DNA from: a virus
Virus record (IMG/VR): IMGVR_UViG_3300044971_001158
Span: 1-36,203 of that record
DNA length: 36,203 bases
Direction: 5' to 3' (one strand)
This document shows positions 1,750-36,203 of this stretch, one piece after another. Position numbers and translations under genes: made by a program. Within the stretch, counting starts at the first letter, position 1; each line of letters starts with the position of its first letter. A model generated the notes under the pieces. It saw only the letters and a program-made list of their open reading frames with translations. It did no database searches and was not told where the DNA came from.

Positions 1750-1795
1750 CTTCAGCTAAGAAGCGAAGTGCGGTGGTTAGGGTTGCGTTATTCAA
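1..1795 (-). CDS. Primase-polymerase/helicase, left-end copy, 3' truncated by window edge
   Basis: This is the N-terminal 598 residues of the same replication protein found at the right edge; the C-terminal wing is cut off at base 1. It begins with a bifunctional primase-polymerase domain (N-terminal motif ALRFLAEGISVVPVAN, then the SGNLEMLELEG and SGGLHWLYR motifs). A RecA-like ATPase with Walker A GESESGKS follows. The proposed start is TTG at 1795, because an in-frame TAA lies directly upstream; this start overlaps the stop of the methyltransferase beta gene by 8 bases. The places I compared with the right-end copy show no premature stop, only wobble changes and a few conservative replacements (N/T, D/E, IP/VG). 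Role inferred from the families: primer synthesis and DNA unwinding at the phage origin. A shorter TTG start at 1654 is possible but would cut into the primase domain. Confidence 0.85.
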   Translation of the reverse strand, partial: MNNATLTTALRFLAEGISVVPVANDGSKRPALSWQKYQEQLPTADELLLWFKHDVDGIGVITGKVSGNLEMLELEGRAVSQKMHLDIAEIANNSGLGELWQRLNAGYVEITPSGGLHWLYRVIDGEVGGNTKLARKPGENGGVDVFAETRSEGGFTITAPSGGSTHPNGGNWTLIGGSIESIPKITMHERAALHQIFAMFDEMPKAQVIQADVVAKHDGTLSPGDDYNQRTTWDEILLPLGWSKVYQKGEATVWRRPNKTEGISATTNFNGNDKLFVFSTSTIFEAESSYSKFAAYAHLNTNGDFKQAAQQLRNLGYGATELKELLQPNNLLAQNVIEAPSQVTTADLSDDESSWKPIPLKDYYDGLFAAPIATILKRTDGNGLLYTGRVHSIYGESESGKSWIAQIATAECLKADQKVIYIDFESDAIDIVNRLKALGVSRANLLQYFTYIRPDGPRNENDPYWQDILQPDSAVLVVIDGVTESLTMWGGQTKDNDEITRWMRIFPRTVATACGAAVVLIDHITKNAETRGRFAIGGQAKLATIDGAAYLVEPIEVLAPGRIGSLTMRVTKDRPGFVRKMAGMYRKSDRTQEAAIFT

Positions 1796-2609
1796 TTAGT
1801 TGTGCCACCAAACGCCCAACAATCCACTCGACTACCGGCACCGCTACCGCGTTACCCATTTGCTTATATCGGTTTGAATCGGCTTGCCCTGATGTCCAAT
1901 CGTCAGGAAATCCTTGCAGGCGTTCACACTCTGTTGGTGTCAAACGGCGAACAGTTTGTTCTGTTGCAACTCCGTGACCACTCACACGATCAAGTGTAAA
2001 CATTGGTGAACCATCATCACTAAAACCTTTACCTTGTGGCCCTGATGTGTCAGCTCTACCAATAACTGTTCCCTGAATCGGAATTGCAACCGCTTGACCG
2101 CCTGTTGTGTCTAATGTGTAAGCCGGTGCATTTTCATCACCAATTCCTAAACCATTTTGATTTTTTTCCATTTCTCGCCCATCTTGAATTGGATACACAA
2201 CCGCCATTCCTGCGCCACCTGCTCTAAGTGTCGGTGAATTTTCTTCACTTGCTTGAACATCTAACCCTTGAGTATGACTAAAAACCATTGGCACATTTCC
2301 CCCGCCTGTTCCATATCTTGCAACAACTGTTGGCACAATGCCATCTTCATAAACTCGCACATCGTTCACGCGAGTTCCATCAATAATCAAATGAGATGAT
2401 TTGCTTGCATTTGCTCTTAACGCATTTTTCACTTTTGCCTCAGCCCAATTTTCCTCAAATAATGATTTAGGTTCAAATAGAATCAAAACCGTTGCTCTTG
2501 TGTCACTTGCGTTATCAAATACATTCAAAGTCGGAACTACCCCCCCCGAAATCCAAGTTTCATAATCATCAACATTTTGCGCTCGGCGCGATTTAGTCCA
2601 CCACATCAA
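1788..2609 (-). CDS. DNA (cytosine-5) methyltransferase, C-terminal half (motifs IX-X)
   Basis: This frame carries the target-recognition region and closing motifs of a C5-cytosine methyltransferase. Motif IX reads RRLTPTECERLQGFPDDW near residue 220, and motif X is GNAVAVPVVEWI near the C-terminus. It has no SAM-binding or catalytic PCQ motif of its own; those sit in the overlapping upstream frame (2593-3348). Its first codons overlap the end of that frame by about 17 bases in a +1-shifted frame. The start could be ATG 2609 or TTG 2612, with only a weak AGG upstream. Either a single-base frameshift split one gene, or the two halves form a heterodimer in the manner of M.AquI. The expected role is modification of phage DNA against host restriction; no partner restriction enzyme is present. 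Confidence 0.85.
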   Translation of the reverse strand: MMWWTKSRRAQNVDDYETWISGGVVPTLNVFDNASDTRATVLILFEPKSLFEENWAEAKVKNALRANASKSSHLIIDGTRVNDVRVYEDGIVPTVVARYGTGGGNVPMVFSHTQGLDVQASEENSPTLRAGGAGMAVVYPIQDGREMEKNQNGLGIGDENAPAYTLDTTGGQAVAIPIQGTVIGRADTSGPQGKGFSDDGSPMFTLDRVSGHGVATEQTVRRLTPTECERLQGFPDDWTSGQADSNRYKQMGNAVAVPVVEWIVGRLVAQLIE

Positions 2610-3348
2610 CAACCTGCAATAAACCTGAATTAACGGCTTGGTTTGAACCCATCCCTTTTGTTAAATCTGAAACTGTGAGAGCATCAATTATTTTTCCTGC
2701 TCGGCTACTTTCTCCAACGCTGTCTGAAGTTGTTGAGGTAGAACCTTTCCGCGTTTGTTTGCTCGCCTCAAGATACCTTGCGCGGCCTTCGCTGAGAGCG
2801 AGTATTTCTGCAGGTGTTCCCCCTGAACCTCTAAGACATCCGACAATGAACACTCTACGCCTTCTTTGTGGTACTCCGTAGAATTGAGCATCACACACTC
2901 GCCACGCGACATCAAACCCGATGTCATCCAACGCGCTGAGGACAACTGCAAAATCTCTTCCGTCATTTGAGGATAATAAACCAGGGACATTTTCGAGAAT
3001 AAAGTTTTCCGCTTTGGTTTCGGTGAGAAGTCTGACGATTTCCCAAAATAAGCCTGATCTACTTCCCTGAAGTCCAGCTCGTTTGCCTGCAACTGACAAG
3101 TCTTGACAAGGGAAACCACCGGTGATGATTCCTCGCTTTGGGTTGAATCCGCATTGAATAAGTTGTTCACCTGTTACCCCCGAAACATCGCCGAAAATTG
3201 TTGAGCTTGGAAAATGTCGGCGTAACACTTCCTGCGCTTTCTTATCCCATTCAACTGATGCAACTACTTTTACACCTGATCTTTCAAGTGCTAAATCAAA
3301 TCCACCGACACCCGCAAAGAGTGAAACGGCGGTGATCTCCCCTACCAC
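2593..3348 (-). CDS. DNA (cytosine-5) methyltransferase, N-terminal half (motifs I-VIII)
   Basis: The SAM-binding motif I (SLFAGVGGFDLAL) lies about 8 residues from the start. The catalytic motif IV is GGFPCQDLS, with the nucleophilic cysteine in PCQ. Motif VI (ENVPGL) and motif VIII (QRRRRVFIVG) follow. The reading frame stops at TAA after the string GLLQVVDVVD, before the recognition domain, and the remainder is encoded one base over in the next frame. I chose GTG 3348 because it gives a 7-base overlap with the preceding small gene; TTG 3363 is the alternative and neither has a strong ribosome site. The family methylates cytosine C5 in double-stranded DNA. As an orphan enzyme in a phage, it most plausibly protects the genome from host restriction. 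Confidence 0.88.
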   Translation of the reverse strand: MVGEITAVSLFAGVGGFDLALERSGVKVVASVEWDKKAQEVLRRHFPSSTIFGDVSGVTGEQLIQCGFNPKRGIITGGFPCQDLSVAGKRAGLQGSRSGLFWEIVRLLTETKAENFILENVPGLLSSNDGRDFAVVLSALDDIGFDVAWRVCDAQFYGVPQRRRRVFIVGCLRGSGGTPAEILALSEGRARYLEASKQTRKGSTSTTSDSVGESSRAGKIIDALTVSDLTKGMGSNQAVNSGLLQVVDVVD

Positions 3349-3479
3349 TCCAACGCCATCCAAAAGATGCCAAGGTCAATTGATAGTGTCCATTTATCAA
3401 TCACAATTCCCAAGCCAAAACCTTTGCGCGTTCCAAAGGCTAAATAAAAACCATCTCTGATTTTAATTTCTTTCACCAT
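3342..3479 (-). CDS. Small hypothetical protein, 45 residues
   Basis: A 45-codon frame begins with ATGGTGAAAGAAATT and shares the A of the upstream stop (TAATG at 3481-3477). This coupled arrangement is the rule in this operon. The product begins MVKEIKIRDGFYLAFG and contains a glycine-rich RKGFGLGIVIDKW stretch reminiscent of short beta-strands. I recognise no family. Its end overlaps the methyltransferase start. The tight coupling on both sides is the main support that it is translated. Confidence 0.55.
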   Translation of the reverse strand: MVKEIKIRDGFYLAFGTRKGFGLGIVIDKWTLSIDLGIFWMALEW

Positions 3480-4219: not shown

Positions 4220-4368
4220 TTGACATCCCCCGTTTCTGTTTGGGTGTTACTTTGGTTTTGTTGGTTTTCCAACTCTATTGGTGTTTCTAGTTCAGCCAAT
4301 TCTTTGGCTATGTCATTGATTGTTTTTGCGGGCATCCCGCAGGCGCAACCATCAGTGCAACACATCAT
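4216..4368 (-). CDS. Small cysteine-rich protein, 50 residues
   Basis: The start is ATG 4368, overlapping the exonuclease stop as ATGA (4368-4365). The N-terminus MMCCTDGCACGMPAK packs four cysteines into eight residues and could bind a metal or Fe-S cluster. The remainder is acidic and Gln/Asn/Thr-rich and probably unstructured. The open frame extends upstream to 4476, but that part only mirrors the exonuclease in another frame. No family is recognised. Its position between the Fe-S exonuclease and the putative ssDNA-binding protein suggests an accessory role in recombination, which is inference. Confidence 0.6.
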   Translation of the reverse strand: MMCCTDGCACGMPAKTINDIAKELAELETPIELENQQNQSNTQTETGDVK

Positions 4369-5108
4369 TTGGCTTCCATATCTCCATTGCAGGCAACCGA
4401 TAAATCGGTGCTGAACGGTCTGAAATAAGGGCAATAATTGCAATTGCGCGATGGCACCTTCGGTATCAATTCCCACATCGCAGGTGAGTTCTCAACATCA
4501 ACTGTTGAAAGTAATTCATAAACATTATCTAGGCGTTTAAGTGCGCCTATGGCAATTTGCTCATCGTATGGATGCAATTCAAGGTGCATATCCGATATTT
4601 GGCCGCCAGTTGGGAGAAAGGCAAGCCCAACCTGCTTAACATCGTACCCCTCTTGCGCCTTGCCATAGGCGTACAACTGAACTTGGATTATCTGTTGTTG
4701 GCTCGCACCGCTACTGCGCTTCTCCTTCACATTAGCGGGTGAGGTTGTTTTCCAATCAATGACAATCCCGTTTTCCTTATCGTAGAGATCAACTGTCCCG
4801 GAAAGATTGGCCCTAATCTTGACCTTACTCTCTACCTCAAACCGATCAGGAAACTTTGCAAAGATACCTTCCAAATGAGAGTGAATAGCAGTTCCAACTT
4901 GAGCTGCCCAATTGCCCCCACTTGATTCATTCACCTTTTCCCAATCAAGTAATTTATAGGCTAACTTGCGGGTACATTCTTGACCCACTTCACTTGGGCC
5001 AATATAAACCTGTTGCGAACGGGGCGAGAAAATACCCGCTTGAGTAATAATCTCGCCCAATTCAATTGCAAGAGCCTTACTTGGAGTGTTCAAAGGTGTA
5101 AAAGGCAT
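4365..5108 (-). CDS. Cas4/RecB-like PD-(D/E)XK exonuclease with Fe-S cysteines
   Basis: A 247-residue nuclease. His76/His78 (AIHSHLE), Asp107 (GTVDLYD) and Asp118-x-Lys120 (IVIDWKTT) form the PD-(D/E)XK active-site pattern of the RecB/Cas4 superfamily. Cys45 (GQECTRKL) together with Cys223, Cys226 and Cys240 near the C-terminus (CNYCPYF and VACNG) gives the four-cysteine arrangement that holds a 4Fe-4S cluster in Cas4 and AddB-type nucleases. The likely role is 5' or 3' end resection during phage recombination and replication. It sits in an operon with a possible ssDNA-binding protein and the 109-residue protein often found beside such exonucleases. No Cas1/Cas2 or CRISPR array is present, so a CRISPR role is unlikely. 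Confidence 0.85.
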   Translation of the reverse strand: MPFTPLNTPSKALAIELGEIITQAGIFSPRSQQVYIGPSEVGQECTRKLAYKLLDWEKVNESSGGNWAAQVGTAIHSHLEGIFAKFPDRFEVESKVKIRANLSGTVDLYDKENGIVIDWKTTSPANVKEKRSSGASQQQIIQVQLYAYGKAQEGYDVKQVGLAFLPTGGQISDMHLELHPYDEQIAIGALKRLDNVYELLSTVDVENSPAMWELIPKVPSRNCNYCPYFRPFSTDLSVACNGDMEAK

Positions 5109-5111
5109 CGC

Positions 5112-5441
5112 TTATTCATCTCCATTTACAACGGTAAAACGGCGAGATGTTGAAACTACCTCTAGCAAATCAATCACTTGAGCAGGCAGGATTTCTCGCG
5201 CCCGCTTAGTATCAAATCGTTTGCTTTCAACAACCGACCATCTGACAACAGGGCGATTGCCAAACATTCCAACTTGAGAATCACCAAGGGCAGATTCTAA
5301 GTGTGAACGGGCGATGTCAGCTACTTCTTGCCATTCCTTAATCTTTGCTAATGCTGACTTGTATTGCTCAAGCCACGCATTTGCATCGGCATCAAAATCA
5401 ACGATGCCTTTCTCTATTTCAACGGTCACTTTAACCCCCAA
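5112..5441 (-). CDS. Exonuclease-associated phage protein, 109 residues
   Basis: The N-terminal half is a predicted coiled coil (about residues 15-52: WLEQYKSALAKIKEWQEVAD). A short module then reads ALGDSQVGMFGNRPVVRWS and STSRRFTV. I associate this pattern, G(D/E)..vG...grpvv followed by a terminal stR.f.V, with the small domain fused to or encoded next to YqaJ/Cas4-type phage nucleases. The gene ends 3 bases before the exonuclease start. A partner or scaffold role in the recombination complex is inferred. Confidence 0.6.
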   Translation of the reverse strand: MGVKVTVEIEKGIVDFDADANAWLEQYKSALAKIKEWQEVADIARSHLESALGDSQVGMFGNRPVVRWSVVESKRFDTKRAREILPAQVIDLLEVVSTSRRFTVVNGDE

Positions 5442-5447
5442 AGTTTT

Positions 5448-5834
5448 TTAGTACCATTTGTCTTTTTTGAACTTTGCCCAGGCAGCGCAGGGGCCACCTG
5501 AACCATATTTTCTGCCGATGTAAGCAAGGGCAGCAACGGTTTGGGCAACTTCAGATTTACTGCGAGTCATCCCAAGGTTTCTATAAGTTGAATCTAACAA
5601 TTGACCCACGCCTTCGGCTGAGCTTGTTGGATTCTTTTTATCTTTCCAGGCGCTTTCTTTGCCCATAAGCAAATTAAAGCACTTAAAATCTTTTTCAGTG
5701 AGCAACTCGCGGGCGAGTTCCTTGTGATTAACCTGTTCCAAAATTGGGCGTTCTTTGTAAATGACCAATTCAGGAATTGCAGGTGTTGGATTTATTGCTT
5801 GAACCAATAGTGAAGTCACGGTTGAAACCACCAA
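5448..5834 (-). CDS. Lytic transglycosylase-like protein, probably secreted
   Basis: The C-terminal 80 residues match the lysozyme-like SLT fold. The catalytic glutamate is in LMGKESAWKDKKNP (about residue 60), followed by AEGVGQLLDSTY and the closing GGPCAAWAKFKKDKWY. The domain cleaves peptidoglycan glycan strands. The first canonical start is TTG 5834, but the frame stays open to 5894. The upstream codons would add IKPNTKRVINRIALILVV, a basic stretch followed by a hydrophobic one that makes a good signal peptide or anchor. A strong AAGGAG (5892-5887) sits 7 bases before an ATC codon at 5879, so the true start may be a rare ATC/ATT codon. The gene lies far from the lysis cassette, inside the early operon, so a job in cell-wall remodelling or superinfection exclusion is possible. 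Confidence 0.75.
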   Translation of the reverse strand: MVVSTVTSLLVQAINPTPAIPELVIYKERPILEQVNHKELARELLTEKDFKCFNLLMGKESAWKDKKNPTSSAEGVGQLLDSTYRNLGMTRSKSEVAQTVAALAYIGRKYGSGGPCAAWAKFKKDKWY

Positions 5835-6286
5835 TATGAGGGCGATTCGGTTAATGACTCTTTTTGTGTTTGGTTTGATTGGATTGCTCCTTCTCTAGCT
5901 GCCTTCGCAAGTTGTGCCGAAACCTTGTAAACATATTGGCTCGAACATTCAACTGTAATGGCAATTTCGTTGGCGCTTTTGTTTTCCCATAACATCTGAT
6001 GAATCATAATTGCTTTCTTAGATATTACAGTTCGCCGGCTTTTGCGGTTAATACTATGCCGTTGATCGGCTGTGTACCCGCCCCAAAATCCGTAAACAAT
6101 TCGCTTGTCAAGTGCGTACTCCAAACATTCCTCTCTATGAATACAACTCCCGCAGATTTGCTTGAGTCGGGGCAGGCGTTCTGCCTCATCGTGCTTCGTA
6201 TCTGGAAAGAAATAATCTTTATCCTCAACTTTTGCACATTGGGCTTCTCGGAACTTGGGTGAATCGCTGAATATGTCAAAGTTCAT
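5816..6286 (-). CDS. WhiB-family Fe-S transcription factor with extra C-terminal HTH
   Basis: From ATG 6286 (ATGA overlap with the upstream gene) the protein has 156 residues. The WhiB signature is complete: Cys17, Cys45, Cys48 and Cys54 (C-X27-C-X2-C-X5-C) to hold a 4Fe-4S cluster, then the GFWGG turn at 66-70. A basic tail (RKSRR) follows. Unlike minimal WhiB proteins, about 60 more residues form a likely helix-turn-helix (AIMIHQMLWENKSANEIAITVECSSQYVYKV, quoted in part), resembling a Trp-repressor or resolvase-like HTH. WhiB proteins are confined to Actinobacteria and their phages and act with the primary sigma factor. It probably tunes host or phage transcription early in infection. Confidence 0.92.
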   Translation of the reverse strand: MNFDIFSDSPKFREAQCAKVEDKDYFFPDTKHDEAERLPRLKQICGSCIHREECLEYALDKRIVYGFWGGYTADQRHSINRKSRRTVISKKAIMIHQMLWENKSANEIAITVECSSQYVYKVSAQLAKAAREGAIQSNQTQKESLTESPSYWWFQP

Positions 6287-6636
6287 CTCCTTGTACCGTA
6301 GCCCGCTTCTCGCAGTAAATTGGTGATTTGTTCTAGCGACATAATCGCCCACCAATTTGCGGTGTTAGCAGTTCCAACACCGTTGGGTTTCACAACCAAA
6401 ACGCCAAAGTCTGCCTTAGCGTTTTTGGTTTCCTGTTCGGTTTCTTTTAACCAAGCAGGAATCTTATAGGTTTTATGATTCTTAACTTCCCAAGCCAATG
6501 CAGGGGTGCCTGTTATATCGCCAAGATCAAGTGACCCGTTGAGCGCCCTTCTTTCGGCGTAAGGAAAACCGTTATCAATTAAGAATTTGACAACGGCTGT
6601 TTCCGCTGAGGTTCCCTTTGCTTTGGCTTTGGACAT
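6283..6636 (-). CDS. Holliday-junction-resolvase-like PD-(D/E)XK nuclease
   Basis: A 117-residue protein with the Hjc-type order of motifs: Glu12 (GTSAETAVVKFL), Asp40 (LDLGDITG) and Glu50-x-Lys52 (AWEVKNHK). A DFGVLVVKPNGVG strand follows. The size and motif order fit a phage Holliday-junction or branch-resolving nuclease. It would resolve recombination or packaging intermediates. The start shares a base with the stop of the upstream 27-residue membrane protein (TAATG), and its stop overlaps the WhiB start (ATGA). A general restriction-like endonuclease is the alternative. Confidence 0.75.
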   Translation of the reverse strand: MSKAKAKGTSAETAVVKFLIDNGFPYAERRALNGSLDLGDITGTPALAWEVKNHKTYKIPAWLKETEQETKNAKADFGVLVVKPNGVGTANTANWWAIMSLEQITNLLREAGYGTRR

Positions 6637-6787: not shown

Positions 6788-7360
6788 CTATCGGCTAAAT
6801 TGAATCTCAACCTGAAATGGTGCGCTGGTGTTTACATCAAACTTAGCTGAAAGCACTAGGGCAGTTTTGATGGCGTTGGTGGCGGTGTCAATGTTTAGTG
6901 TTTGCCCTGTTGCCTCGCCATAAACATCTGCCATTGAAGTCAGATAGCCAATGGCGTACGCGCTACCCGACCCGATGCCGTAGGTGAAGTCTATTGATTG
7001 TGAAATGCCTAGATCGTTGCCGATTTCAAAGATGTTGCCATTAAAGGCGAGCAGGTAGGCAAAACTCGCACCCTCTTTTTGGTAATCATAGCCATTGTCT
7101 TTGAACGCCTTGATAATGCTTGGAATCACTTTTTTGCCCATAAACCCAACGGGGTCGGTGCCATCGTATAGAGGCGGTTTCCAGTTATACATCAAGACAT
7201 CACCGGGGCGGCAATCCCCGCAGACCCCTAATAGGTACTTGCCAACCTTGACGATTTTGGGCGTTGAAGGCGAAATGATGCGCTTGTCACCATCGGTGAT
7301 TTGGCTGTCAGCTCCAAGGATAGCGAAGCCTTTGCCTTGGTAGCCTGCAATTGTGGTCAT
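6788..7360 (-). CDS. Proteasome beta / HslV-like Ntn-hydrolase
   Basis: After the initiator Met the protein begins TTIAGYQGKGFAILGADSQ. This supplies Thr1 as nucleophile, Asp17 (GADSQ) and Lys34 (PKIVKVGKYLLGVCGD), which corresponds to Lys33 of HslV and the proteasome. The GIGSGSAYAIG loop corresponds to the conserved region around Ser129. At 190 residues it has the length of HslV or a mature beta subunit. It should self-assemble into a ring peptidase. No HslU, ClpX or other unfoldase is encoded here, so it may act alone or with a host ATPase. It could degrade host or phage proteins, or process virion proteins. ATG 7360 places Thr1 right after Met. TTG 7369, with GAGGGG 5 bases upstream, has the better ribosome site and would add three residues (M-T-P). 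It is the first gene of the leftward operon. Confidence 0.85.
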   Translation of the reverse strand: MTTIAGYQGKGFAILGADSQITDGDKRIISPSTPKIVKVGKYLLGVCGDCRPGDVLMYNWKPPLYDGTDPVGFMGKKVIPSIIKAFKDNGYDYQKEGASFAYLLAFNGNIFEIGNDLGISQSIDFTYGIGSGSAYAIGYLTSMADVYGEATGQTLNIDTATNAIKTALVLSAKFDVNTSAPFQVEIQFSR

Positions 7361-7389
7361 AGGGGTCAATTCTACCCCTCTGAGGGGTA
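7361..7389 (-). promoter_or_regulatory. Two mutually exclusive hairpins at the protease start
   Basis: TACCCCTC-t-GAGGGGTA (7373-7380 and 7382-7389) is a perfect 8-bp inverted repeat. The inner arm can instead pair with AGGGGT at 7361-7366, directly abutting ATG 7360 (6-bp stem 7361-7366/7374-7379, 7-base loop). In RNA of the minus strand, the middle arm would choose between two partners. The GAGGGG ribosome site lies in the outer hairpin and the TTG and ATG starts lie at the second. It could equally be a DNA operator. Confidence 0.45.
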
Positions 7390-7510: not shown

Positions 7511-7738
7511 ATGAAACTAGTTCCAACAAATGAGAAAGTGCAAATCAAGTGGTTTGCAATTTTTGCTGATGGTTCAAAAATGCGCAACAACCAAGGTTTT
7601 GTTCACAATGCTTGGGATGTAACTTGCTCTTGCGGTTGGGAAACAAAAACAGGTGGCGCAATTAAAGCATCAGTTCAATCAGATGTTGATTCACACAAAG
7701 TAATGGAACACAACTACACAAGAAAGTTTGGTGCGTAA
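7511..7738 (+). CDS. Small protein with possible zinc or surface-binding motif, 75 residues
   Basis: First gene of the rightward operon. ATG 7511 was chosen over the upstream in-frame start because AGAAGG lies 7-8 bases before it and the promoter falls upstream. The product contains TCSCGWET near the middle and DVDSHKVMEH near the end, so Cys-x-Cys and two His could bind a metal. I recognise a loose likeness to small actinophage proteins with a C-x-C-G-W centre but cannot name a family. Its stop overlaps the next start (TAATG). Confidence 0.7.
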   Translation: MKLVPTNEKVQIKWFAIFADGSKMRNNQGFVHNAWDVTCSCGWETKTGGAIKASVQSDVDSHKVMEHNYTRKFGA

Positions 7739-8710: not shown

Positions 8711-8750
8711 GAAAGAACCCCCAACAGGAACGGCTGTTGGGGGTTCTTTC
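8711..8750. terminator. Perfect bidirectional terminator hairpin
   Basis: A 17-bp perfect stem (8711-8727 with 8734-8750, GAAAGAACCCCCAACAG and its complement) encloses a 6-base loop. The A/T-rich outer ends give pyrimidine-rich tails on both strands. It separates the rightward operon from the convergent leftward structural operon and can stop transcription from both sides. Confidence 0.9.
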
Positions 8751-26798: not shown

Positions 26799-27743
26799 TT
26801 ATTTTGTGTTATTGATAATTGCTTTGGCTAAGCGCAGTGAAATTGAACGCGCTGGCACATCGGTTGGCTCTAACTCAACTTCAGGTTCTTCAACTTCAAC
26901 AGTTGGGGTTAGTGTGTTTAATCCAAGCAAAACTTCAAGCATTGTTTTTCCTTCTTCAAGGCTGTCATAAGAATCAGATACCTTTTCAAGAATTGAATTG
27001 ATAACAAGAGTTGATTCGCCATCTAATGCGCGACCTTCTTTAATTGCTTCCATTGCGTTTTTGATTGCCTCTCTTGCTTCAACTGAGGTGGTTGGGTAGG
27101 CCGGATAAGTAACCACGCTAACATCGCCATCGGCCAATGAAACTTCGGTAAGCGTACGAGTTGAGCGATCTTCGCTCCACTTTTGGCGAATCACACGAAA
27201 AGCAAAACTCATTTGGTCAACATCTCCGCGCTCAACTAATTTGTAAAGGTCGCGCCCCTCGCTAGTGTCTGCAATAACTGCATCCATAAACAAGCCGCGA
27301 TCATCTTCAGTAAGGGTCAAAGTGCCATTCTTTGTGCGAGCTAATGGCAAACCTTCGTGATTGATAAGCAAACGAACATCAGGTGTTTCGCTTAATGTTT
27401 TACGGAAAGCGCCGGGGGCGATAGTTTCCTTAAATGGTAGGGGAACGCTTGCATCATTGAACACTGCTGCGTAACCACGCAACCGCATTGTTCCATCATC
27501 TGCTTGGCGTGCTTCAACATCTTGAACCGTAAATGTACGGCGTTCAATTTCTTTCACTTTGCTCCTTGAGTTAACTTCCCCGCCTGGTTCCATATCTTCA
27601 GAGATTGAAACTGCAACCATTTGATCTATTGCATCTTGCTTATTATCGTGACACGCAAGCGTTGTATAAGAACCATCTGTTTCTTGCTTTACTGTTGCCC
27701 ATCCTGAACAATCAGCTTGTTTATTACTAATAAAGTAAGGCAT
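26799..27743 (-). CDS. Prohead protease, HK97 U35 type, with an extra N-terminal domain
   Basis: Residues 75-240 carry the U35 fold: RLRGYAAVFNDASVPLPFKE, then His in LLINHEGLPLART and Ser in VDQMSFAFRV, which with a Glu form the catalytic set. Residues 1-60 (ADCSGWATVKQETDGSYTTL ... CHDNKQDAIDQMVAV) are an extra small domain seen fused in some actinophage proteases. The C-terminal 60 residues are acidic and may target the protease inside the head. It cuts the delta domain of the capsid protein. It starts with the portal stop overlap TAATG. Confidence 0.9.
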   Translation of the reverse strand: MPYFISNKQADCSGWATVKQETDGSYTTLACHDNKQDAIDQMVAVSISEDMEPGGEVNSRSKVKEIERRTFTVQDVEARQADDGTMRLRGYAAVFNDASVPLPFKETIAPGAFRKTLSETPDVRLLINHEGLPLARTKNGTLTLTEDDRGLFMDAVIADTSEGRDLYKLVERGDVDQMSFAFRVIRQKWSEDRSTRTLTEVSLADGDVSVVTYPAYPTTSVEAREAIKNAMEAIKEGRALDGESTLVINSILEKVSDSYDSLEEGKTMLEVLLGLNTLTPTVEVEEPEVELEPTDVPARSISLRLAKAIINNTK

Positions 27744-34134: not shown

Positions 34135-36203
34135 TTAGTTTGCCCCCAAATAAGAGATTTTGGCATCAACAAAGTTGAAATGGTCTTTGCCCATCGGTGA
34201 AATGTAGAGAACAAATGACCTCTCATTACCCCTGTTTTCAATCCAACCACCTGCCACCAAATCGCCAATGATGCCGCCAATTGACTCTTTGGAACCTGCC
34301 ACGCCATCTTGAACCATTCGGCGGGTGCTACCAGGATGATTGTGAATAAACTCAGCTACCTCTTTGAGTTTCTTAAACTCGCGGTTGGCATCTGCCTCAT
34401 CTTCCTTTAGCGGTACGCCAATGACATATTCCATCTGCGCCCGTGTCGAATCAATGGTGAAAATGGCAGCCTCTTGGGTGCGGTCAGACTTTCGGTACAT
34501 TCCCGCCATTTTGCGAACAAACCCCGGTCGGTCTTTGGTTACTCGCATTGTCAGCGAGCCAATTCTGCCGGGGGCAAGAACCTCAATCGGTTCAACAAGG
34601 TAGGCAGCTCCATCAATCGTTGCTAACTTCGCCTGCCCGCCAATGGCAAACCGCCCGCGTGTTTCGGCGTTCTTAGTAATGTGATCAATCAGCACAACGG
34701 CAGCGCCGCAGGCGGTGGCAACCGTTCTTGGAAAGATTCGCATCCAACGGGTGATTTCGTCATTGTCTTTGGTCTGACCACCCCACATTGTTAGGGATTC
34801 CGTTACGCCGTCAATGACCACTAGAACAGCGCTATCAGGTTGCAGGATGTCTTGCCAATATGGGTCAGTTTCATTACGCGGGCCATCAGGTCGGATATAT
34901 GTGAAGTATTGGAGCAGGTTGGCACGGCTCACGCCTAGCGCCTTGAGGCGGTTTACAATGTCAATTGCATCTGATTCAAAGTCAATATAAATGACCTTTT
35001 GATCAGCTTTTAGGCACTCGGCGGTTGCAATCTGAGCAATCCAAGACTTTCCCGATTCGGATTCACCATAAATTGAGTGAACTCTGCCCGTATAAAGTAG
35101 CCCATTGCCATCGGTTCTTTTTAAGATTGTGGCGATTGGGGCGGCAAATAAGCCGTCATAATAATCCTTTAAGGGGATTGGCTTCCAACTTGACTCATCA
35201 TCGCTTAGGTCGGCGGTGGTGACCTGTGAAGGTGCTTCAATGACATTCTGAGCCAATAAATTATTCGGTTGAAGTAACTCTTTCAGGTCAGTTGCCCCGT
35301 AGCCAAGATTTCTTAATTGTTGGGCAGCCTGCTTGAAATCCCCATTGGTGTTCAGGTGAGCGTAAGCGGCAAACTTTGAATAGGAACTCTCAGCTTCAAA
35401 GATAGTTGAGGTTGAGAAAACAAATAGTTTGTCATTACCATTGAAATTGGTGGTGGCAGAGATTCCTTCGTTCTTATTCGGTCTGCGCCAAACGGTTGCC
35501 TCACCCTTTTGATAAACCTTTGACCAACCAAGAGGTAACAAGATTTCATCCCAAGTTGTTCTTGCGTTGTAATCATCACCGGGGCTGAGGGTGCCATCGT
35601 GCTTGGCAACTACATCTGCTTGAATAACTTGCGCTTTTGGCATTTCGTCAAACATCGCAAAGATTTGGTGAAGGGCTGCTCTTTCGTGCATCGTAATCTT
35701 TGGGATCGCCTCGATTGAACCGCCAATTAGTGTCCAATTGCCACCGTTGGGGTGAGTTGAACCGCCCGATGGCGCGGTGATGGTGAAACCGCCTTCGCTT
35801 CGCGTTTCGGCAAACACATCCACGCCGCCGTTTTCACCTGGCTTTCGGGCTAACTTGGTGTTGCCAGGTATCTCGCCGTCAATGACTCGGTATAGCCAAT
35901 GCAAACCGCCTGATGGAGTCATTTCAACATAACCCGCATTTAGGCGCTGCCATAGTTCGCCTAACCCTGAGTTGTTCGCAATCTCAGCAATATCAAGGTG
36001 CATCTTTTGTGATACTGCTCGACCTTCAAGCTCTAGCATTTCAAGGTTGCCCGAAACTTTGCCCGTGATTACACCAATGCCATCAACATCGTGCTTAAAC
36101 CAAAGCAATAATTCATCGGCAGTTGGCAGTTGCTCTTGGTATTTCTGCCAAGATAAGGCAGGGCGCTTGCTTCCGTCATTTGCAACAGGAACAACGCTGA
36201 TGC
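34135..36203 (-). CDS. Primase-polymerase/helicase, right-end copy, 5' truncated by window edge
   Basis: 688 residues are visible; the left-end copy supplies the missing start, giving about 704 residues in all (add about 47 to the numbers below for full-length numbering). Counting from the TTG codon at 36108, the primase-polymerase domain has GVITGKVSGNLEMLELEG at 12-29, SGGLHWLYR at 66-74, and VDVFAETRSEGGFTITAPSG at 96-115. The helicase part has Walker A GESESGKS (348-355), Walker B AVLVVIDGVTE and a DHITKNAETRGRFAIGGQAK motif, like RepA/AAA_25 helicases. The C-terminal 85 residues form a winged helix (KKLKEVAEFIHNHPGSTRRM). It primes and unwinds DNA. Its stop lies beside the GGAAC cluster. 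Confidence 0.93.
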   Translation of the reverse strand, partial: ISVVPVANDGSKRPALSWQKYQEQLPTADELLLWFKHDVDGIGVITGKVSGNLEMLELEGRAVSQKMHLDIAEIANNSGLGELWQRLNAGYVEMTPSGGLHWLYRVIDGEIPGNTKLARKPGENGGVDVFAETRSEGGFTITAPSGGSTHPNGGNWTLIGGSIEAIPKITMHERAALHQIFAMFDEMPKAQVIQADVVAKHDGTLSPGDDYNARTTWDEILLPLGWSKVYQKGEATVWRRPNKNEGISATTNFNGNDKLFVFSTSTIFEAESSYSKFAAYAHLNTNGDFKQAAQQLRNLGYGATDLKELLQPNNLLAQNVIEAPSQVTTADLSDDESSWKPIPLKDYYDGLFAAPIATILKRTDGNGLLYTGRVHSIYGESESGKSWIAQIATAECLKADQKVIYIDFESDAIDIVNRLKALGVSRANLLQYFTYIRPDGPRNETDPYWQDILQPDSAVLVVIDGVTESLTMWGGQTKDNDEITRWMRIFPRTVATACGAAVVLIDHITKNAETRGRFAIGGQAKLATIDGAAYLVEPIEVLAPGRIGSLTMRVTKDRPGFVRKMAGMYRKSDRTQEAAIFTIDSTRAQMEYVIGVPLKEDEADANREFKKLKEVAEFIHNHPGSTRRMVQDGVAGSKESIGGIIGDLVAGGWIENRGNERSFVLYISPMGKDHFNFVDAKISYLGAN
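34455..36203. repeat. Right copy of the diverged terminal direct repeat
   Basis: Matches 1-1749 base for base at offset 34454 without net indels, about 95% identical where counted. It covers the 5' part of the primase-helicase gene up to the edge. The sequence after the left copy (1750-1795) supplies the missing start of this gene. Confidence 0.93.

Follow-up and report, generated by a model that had tools for sequence, protein, structure and literature searches.

What would a bacteriophage do with a proteasome-like protease and no unfoldase to feed it? The question is raised by a gene at 6788-7360 (minus strand) of a viral sequence of 36,203 nucleotides (IMG/VR record IMGVR_UViG_3300044971_001158), hereafter the window. 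An earlier reading of the letters, the original prediction, took the product for an active Ntn hydrolase heading a leftward early operon, and offered an early attack on host proteins, subversion of the host Pup-proteasome pathway or self-processing as its role.

The product is a predicted proteasome-fold hydrolase

The reading frame lies where it had been placed, running on the minus strand from an ATG at 7360 to a stop at 6788 and encoding 190 residues that begin Met-Thr-Thr-Ile. The Pfam Proteasome family (PF00227) matches residues 2-45 only, with 26.7 bits against a curated cut-off of 22.4 bits, and matches no other protein of the genome, while the PHROG 1040 profile ('peptidase HslV family') extends over residues 1-186 (E=2.9e-22). 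The AlphaFold2 model (pLDDT 91.4) contains the expected Ntn sandwich with helices H1-H4, H2 being formed by residues 70-88, and has no helix after residue 174, the chain stopping after a strand at 183-188. Foldseek comparison of the model with the PDB returned BPH and HslV as the best matches (E about 1e-10, TM about 0.73), and the family profile search placed BPH first and HslV second, both ahead of the proteasome subunits; identity to the solved relatives is only about 20%. At the level of profile and predicted structure, the gene is confirmed as encoding a proteasome-fold Ntn hydrolase.

The catalytic set named in the original prediction is all in place, with Thr1, the predicted nucleophile once Met is removed, directly after Met (codon 7355-7357), Asp17 (7307-7309) and Lys34 (7256-7258), all on the minus strand, and the GIGSGSA loop at residues 128-134. 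Lys34 is the canonical Lys33 displaced by a one-residue insertion. Thr1, Asp17, Lys34, Gly47, Asp174 and Thr177 are present in 83/83 distinct homologues, which comprise the window lineages and the Planktophila-phage lineage; Asp174 and Thr177 are the equivalents of proteasome Asp166 and Ser169, and Ser130 (the Ser129 position) is Ser in 74/83 and Thr in the remainder. A wider set adds HslV, PrcB and homologues from phages of Gram-negative bacteria; Asp17 and Lys33 occur in every row of it (29/29), and Thr1 in all rows except one, which has Ser there. Furthermore, the gene is under strong purifying selection (median dN/dS about 0.08 among 17 close relatives). Fold, catalytic set and selection support the predicted activity, and we regard the enzyme as very probably active. 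That the protein is a relic or a purely structural subunit of proteasome fold is extremely improbable in view of both the invariant catalytic residues and the low dN/dS. Finally, two features set the actinophage clade apart from HslV and PrcB: a conserved Arg50 lies next to the oxyanion hole, and H1 is followed by a W-x-P-P loop before H2. These features may give it a specificity or an assembly that differs from theirs.

A conserved promoter-like element precedes the start codon

A hexamer TAGAAT (7369-7374, minus strand), the -10 element of a predicted leaderless promoter, ends 8 nt before the ATG. Among the window lineages, every distinct upstream region (66/66) has a TANNNT ending 5-8 nt before the start codon, against a background of 4.9% at shifted positions. 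Both the hexamers (TAGAAT, TACAAT, TACACT, TACCAT, TAGCCT and others) and their flanks vary between clades, and the element is therefore being kept as its surroundings change. Only one other start in the window has a TANNNT match, and that one lies inside an upstream coding region; no canonical -35 box was seen upstream of the protease gene. Leaderless genes of Actinobacteria have this same layout, with TANNNT close before the start codon (cf. PMC3160421 and PMC3898074).

The protease mRNA is thus predicted to be leaderless in the window lineages, and in the Planktophila-phage lineage a purine-rich leader resembling a Shine-Dalgarno sequence replaces the leaderless promoter. Because the conserved element ends 8 nt before it, the ATG at 7360 is likely to be the real start; a TTG start at 7369, given in the mechanical listing, was rejected, as the conserved element overlaps it. 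A leaderless promoter would place the start at Met-Thr1, so that removal of Met alone would expose Thr1, with no propeptide. An inverted repeat, ACCCCTCTGAGGGGT (7374-7388), abuts the -10 element and is a candidate operator, although imperfect in relatives. Inverted repeats like GTGTCGCTACGCGACGACAC adjoin the -10 element in the 50% group of relatives (upstream regions L103-L115), where they too are candidate operators.

The gene heads a leftward operon upstream of WhiB

At its two ends the window carries versions of one 1.75-kb stretch (3-1749 and 34457-36203, 92.5% identity), and given this overlap the genome is essentially complete at about 34.5 kb. Such a repeat points to a genome that is circular or permuted, in whose assembly the primase gene was included as two variants. 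The leftward unit runs in the order protease, RusA/VRR-like nuclease, WhiB, transglycosylase-like gene, exonuclease, methyltransferase and, across the junction, primase. Its second gene (6283-6636, minus strand; phrog_244) encodes a RusA-like resolvase or PD-(D/E)XK-like nuclease and holds the same place in close relatives; the WhiB-like regulator (PF02467, 52 bits) lies at 5816-6355, and the transglycosylase-like gene, a phrog_1956 gene and the exonuclease (phrog_1674) occupy 4365-5834, all on the minus strand. The cytosine DNA methyltransferase (1788-3363, minus strand) falls into two overlapping frames, a split shared by most relatives, and in L080 and L093 it is seemingly one frame.

The protease is the first gene of this unit, as had been claimed. 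Its immediate upstream neighbour is the divergent rightward gene at 7511, and a strong terminator-like stem of 17 pairs (8711-8750, minus strand) closes the late leftward block, setting that block apart from both the protease operon and the rightward genes; this stem comes from a consensus scan in which the number of sites in the region is not above that in shuffles. The arrangement recurs in related phages, with WhiB following the protease gene within 3 kb at 69/69 testable loci, these loci being mutually related and not independent events, and the operon with exonuclease and WhiB persists as identity of the protease falls from about 97% to about 50%. A nucleotide search with the operon among known phages gave no match. 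WhiB was considered as a substrate of the protease and set aside, as proximity alone points to it. What stands of the proposed early operon is its content, with genes of replication and recombination (exonuclease, RusA/VRR-like nuclease, WhiB, primase), and its own promoter element; early expression is likely by extension from these.

Relatives are abundant in viral sequences

At least 573 relatives of the protease are present in IMG/VR. No close relatives were found in bacterial genomes in the GTDB scan, nor in 396 Actinomycetota genomes by a search run without a positive control, and within what was searched the lineage looks viral. A phylogeny against HslV and PrcB, which the original prediction had proposed as a check, sets the freshwater actinophage clade on a branch of its own (support 99/98), separate from both. 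The clade consists of abundant freshwater actinophages, and cultivated Planktophila phages have related enzymes. Among named phages, homologues occur for instance in Actinomycetia phage DSL-LC01, in phages of Arthrobacter and Microbacterium and in many phages of Gram-negative bacteria. In Vibrio phages V6Aob and henriette, a peptide deformylase gene lies close upstream of the protease gene (L126 2283-2771, L128 1633-2130), and its product could help to expose Thr1. The Geobacillus virus E3 topoisomerase entry (L122 1-736) notes an in-frame stop codon, with peptide evidence for a fusion.

This abundance, together with the position of the gene near nucleotide metabolism genes in several phages, some of them large, is what would be expected of a low-specificity peptidase that degrades peptides and damaged proteins and so feeds phage synthesis in streamlined, nutrient-limited hosts. 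We consider such amino-acid recycling quite improbable, however, since a gene that stands first in the leftward programme with a promoter of its own suggests a narrower task.

Unfoldases of phage and host

When the main proteins of the window were scanned with Pfam, a few small ORFs and the tail genes apart, no ATPase for the protease emerged, the only ATPase-type hit being the RecA-like domain of the primase, and a search of the retrieved phage loci, run with a positive control, found no HslU-like ORF. With the genome essentially complete, these results uphold the claim that no ATPase partner is encoded. This leaves the host, which we infer to be likely one of the streamlined freshwater Actinobacteria of the small-genome class; a terminase scan for the host returned one Actinomycetes MAG contig only, and among named phages it is Pontimonas phage phiPsal1 that has the nearest terminase and portal.

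Of 198 Actinomycetota genomes, just one has an HslU above its cut-off, encoded on a contig that also carries an HslV gene; Pup exceeds its own cut-off in 91/198, with none in the 22 genomes of 1.6 Mb or less (0/22), genomes that may be incomplete. As HslU is near-absent from the phylum and Pup absent from its small genomes, both pairing with a host HslU and the suggested subversion of the Pup-proteasome pathway are weakened to the point of being unlikely. In a broader version, a ring of the phage enzyme would take the place of the peptidase in a host AAA+ machine (ClpX, ClpC1 or a Mpa/ARC ATPase), or work alongside it, and so divert the substrates of that machine. In its favour, AAA+ partners serve both HslV and the 20S core, and some HslU relative was detected in 198/198 of the Actinomycetota genomes, nearly all of these matches being weak and below the cut-off. 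The same scarcity of HslU proper and of Pup in small genomes weighs against this docking, as does the finding of Fuchs et al. (PMC8665760) that such homologues have no co-occurring AAA+ interactors, and we hold it to be improbable.

A possible processing role in Planktophila phages

Phages E7 and F5 were isolated on Ca. Planktophila (PMC10202952), and we take OX376640 (39.1 kb) and OX376641 (38.9 kb, LanE43-AprF5) to be their genomes. Both phages, and DSL-LC01, carry a homologous enzyme with 33-35% identity to the window protease, and in DSL-LC01 WhiB comes directly after the protease gene. In F5 (L117 4201-6537), by contrast with the operon-head copy of the window phage, the gene lies downstream of the terminase and begins 16 nt past the portal gene; the F5 proteins scanned between portal and capsid included none recognised as a head maturation protease. 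Many phages keep a head maturation protease in the slot after the portal gene. The enzyme may have a processing role in Planktophila phages, and family members among structural genes fit an early host-takeover role less well.

These observations favour the idea that the enzyme specifically matures one or a few phage proteins, as a protease or else as a connectase-like ligase, for example in the part of head protease in Planktophila phages. Against it, the window phage has its own conventional head maturation protease (phrog_80, 26799-27743, minus strand), its proteasome-like gene heads a replication and recombination operon, and several other phages keep theirs near nucleotide metabolism genes. 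The suggested self-processing is therefore unlikely in the window phage, where a head protease role was rejected because phrog_80 fills that slot, and is possible in Planktophila phages; as an account of the family it strikes us as unlikely, yet worth serious consideration.

A proposed model

We propose, with modest confidence, that the gene encodes a propeptide-free peptidase of proteasome fold from the HslV/BPH branch, which works without a dedicated unfoldase and cleaves proteins in early host takeover. A leaderless mRNA would begin at or beside the ATG, making the protease the first protein of the leftward replication and recombination programme. After deformylation, host methionine aminopeptidase would take off the Met before Thr, leaving the Thr1 nucleophile exposed. 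The subunits would then assemble, probably into a ring or double ring by analogy with BPH, the chamber of which would admit unfolded or flexible polypeptides only. During infection it would cleave or clear a restricted group of proteins, whether of the host or of the phage, most plausibly in the course of host takeover. A bolder form of this model, which we rate as fairly unlikely, has the enzyme as a core, first-made viral 'mini-proteasome' of abundant freshwater actinophages, an ATPase-free ring protease that would act selectively against host regulators or defence proteins, removing them as the leftward programme begins, its Planktophila relatives having been recruited as head maturation proteases.

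The conserved context, the promoter-like element and the homologues in cultivated E7 and F5 make the function of a viral proteasome subunit testable, and the promoter-like element implies a route to an exposed Thr1 without a propeptide.

Comparison with known systems

That phages carry a proteasome subunit without an unfoldase is already known, having been pre-empted by Fuchs, Alva and Lupas in 2021 (PMC8665760), who described the proteasome homologues AAH, PPH and CPH in phages with neither AAA+ partners nor an informative genomic context. The window protease resembles these and PHROG 1040 in being a compact Ntn hydrolase of Caudoviricetes with no propeptide, C-terminal S12/H5 or AAA+ partner. 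PPH has about 140 residues and lacks helix H2, unlike the window protease with its 190 residues and H1-H4, and Anbu has a long C-terminal H5 helix and coiled coils where the window protease has no helix after 174. HslV (ClpQ) shares the fold, Thr1 directly after Met, Asp17 and Lys33, but the window protease scores 13.9 bits against the NCBIfam equivalog cut-off of 137, no cognate HslU is present in the phage loci and the two are separate in the tree. PrcB, the actinobacterial 20S beta subunit, shares the catalytic set, including the Asp166 and Ser169 positions, and differs from the window protease, which has no propeptide and no alpha subunit and lies on a separate branch.

As BPH and HslV outrank proteasome subunits, and as the protein is compact and without S12/H5, profile and model place the window protease in Group I of Fuchs et al. 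(HslV/BPH/AAH/CPH/PPH). Their survey found no Actinobacteria-specific phage with AAH, a gap on which the actinophage clade bears with an assignment at the level of Group I, and its Table 1 lists no phages for BPH. BPH (5ovs, 5ovu), which forms a tetradecameric double ring, is the best match by fold and profile, a comparison made with a monomer model and at the monomer level, and it apparently works without an unfoldase; PMC5777263 supports this unfoldase-independent, BPH-like reading. Identity to BPH is about 20%, and Arg50 and the W-x-P-P loop between H1 and H2 belong to the phage clade. What is new beside these systems is the freshwater actinophage clade itself, its conserved placement at the head of an operon upstream of WhiB, and its predicted leaderless promoter element.
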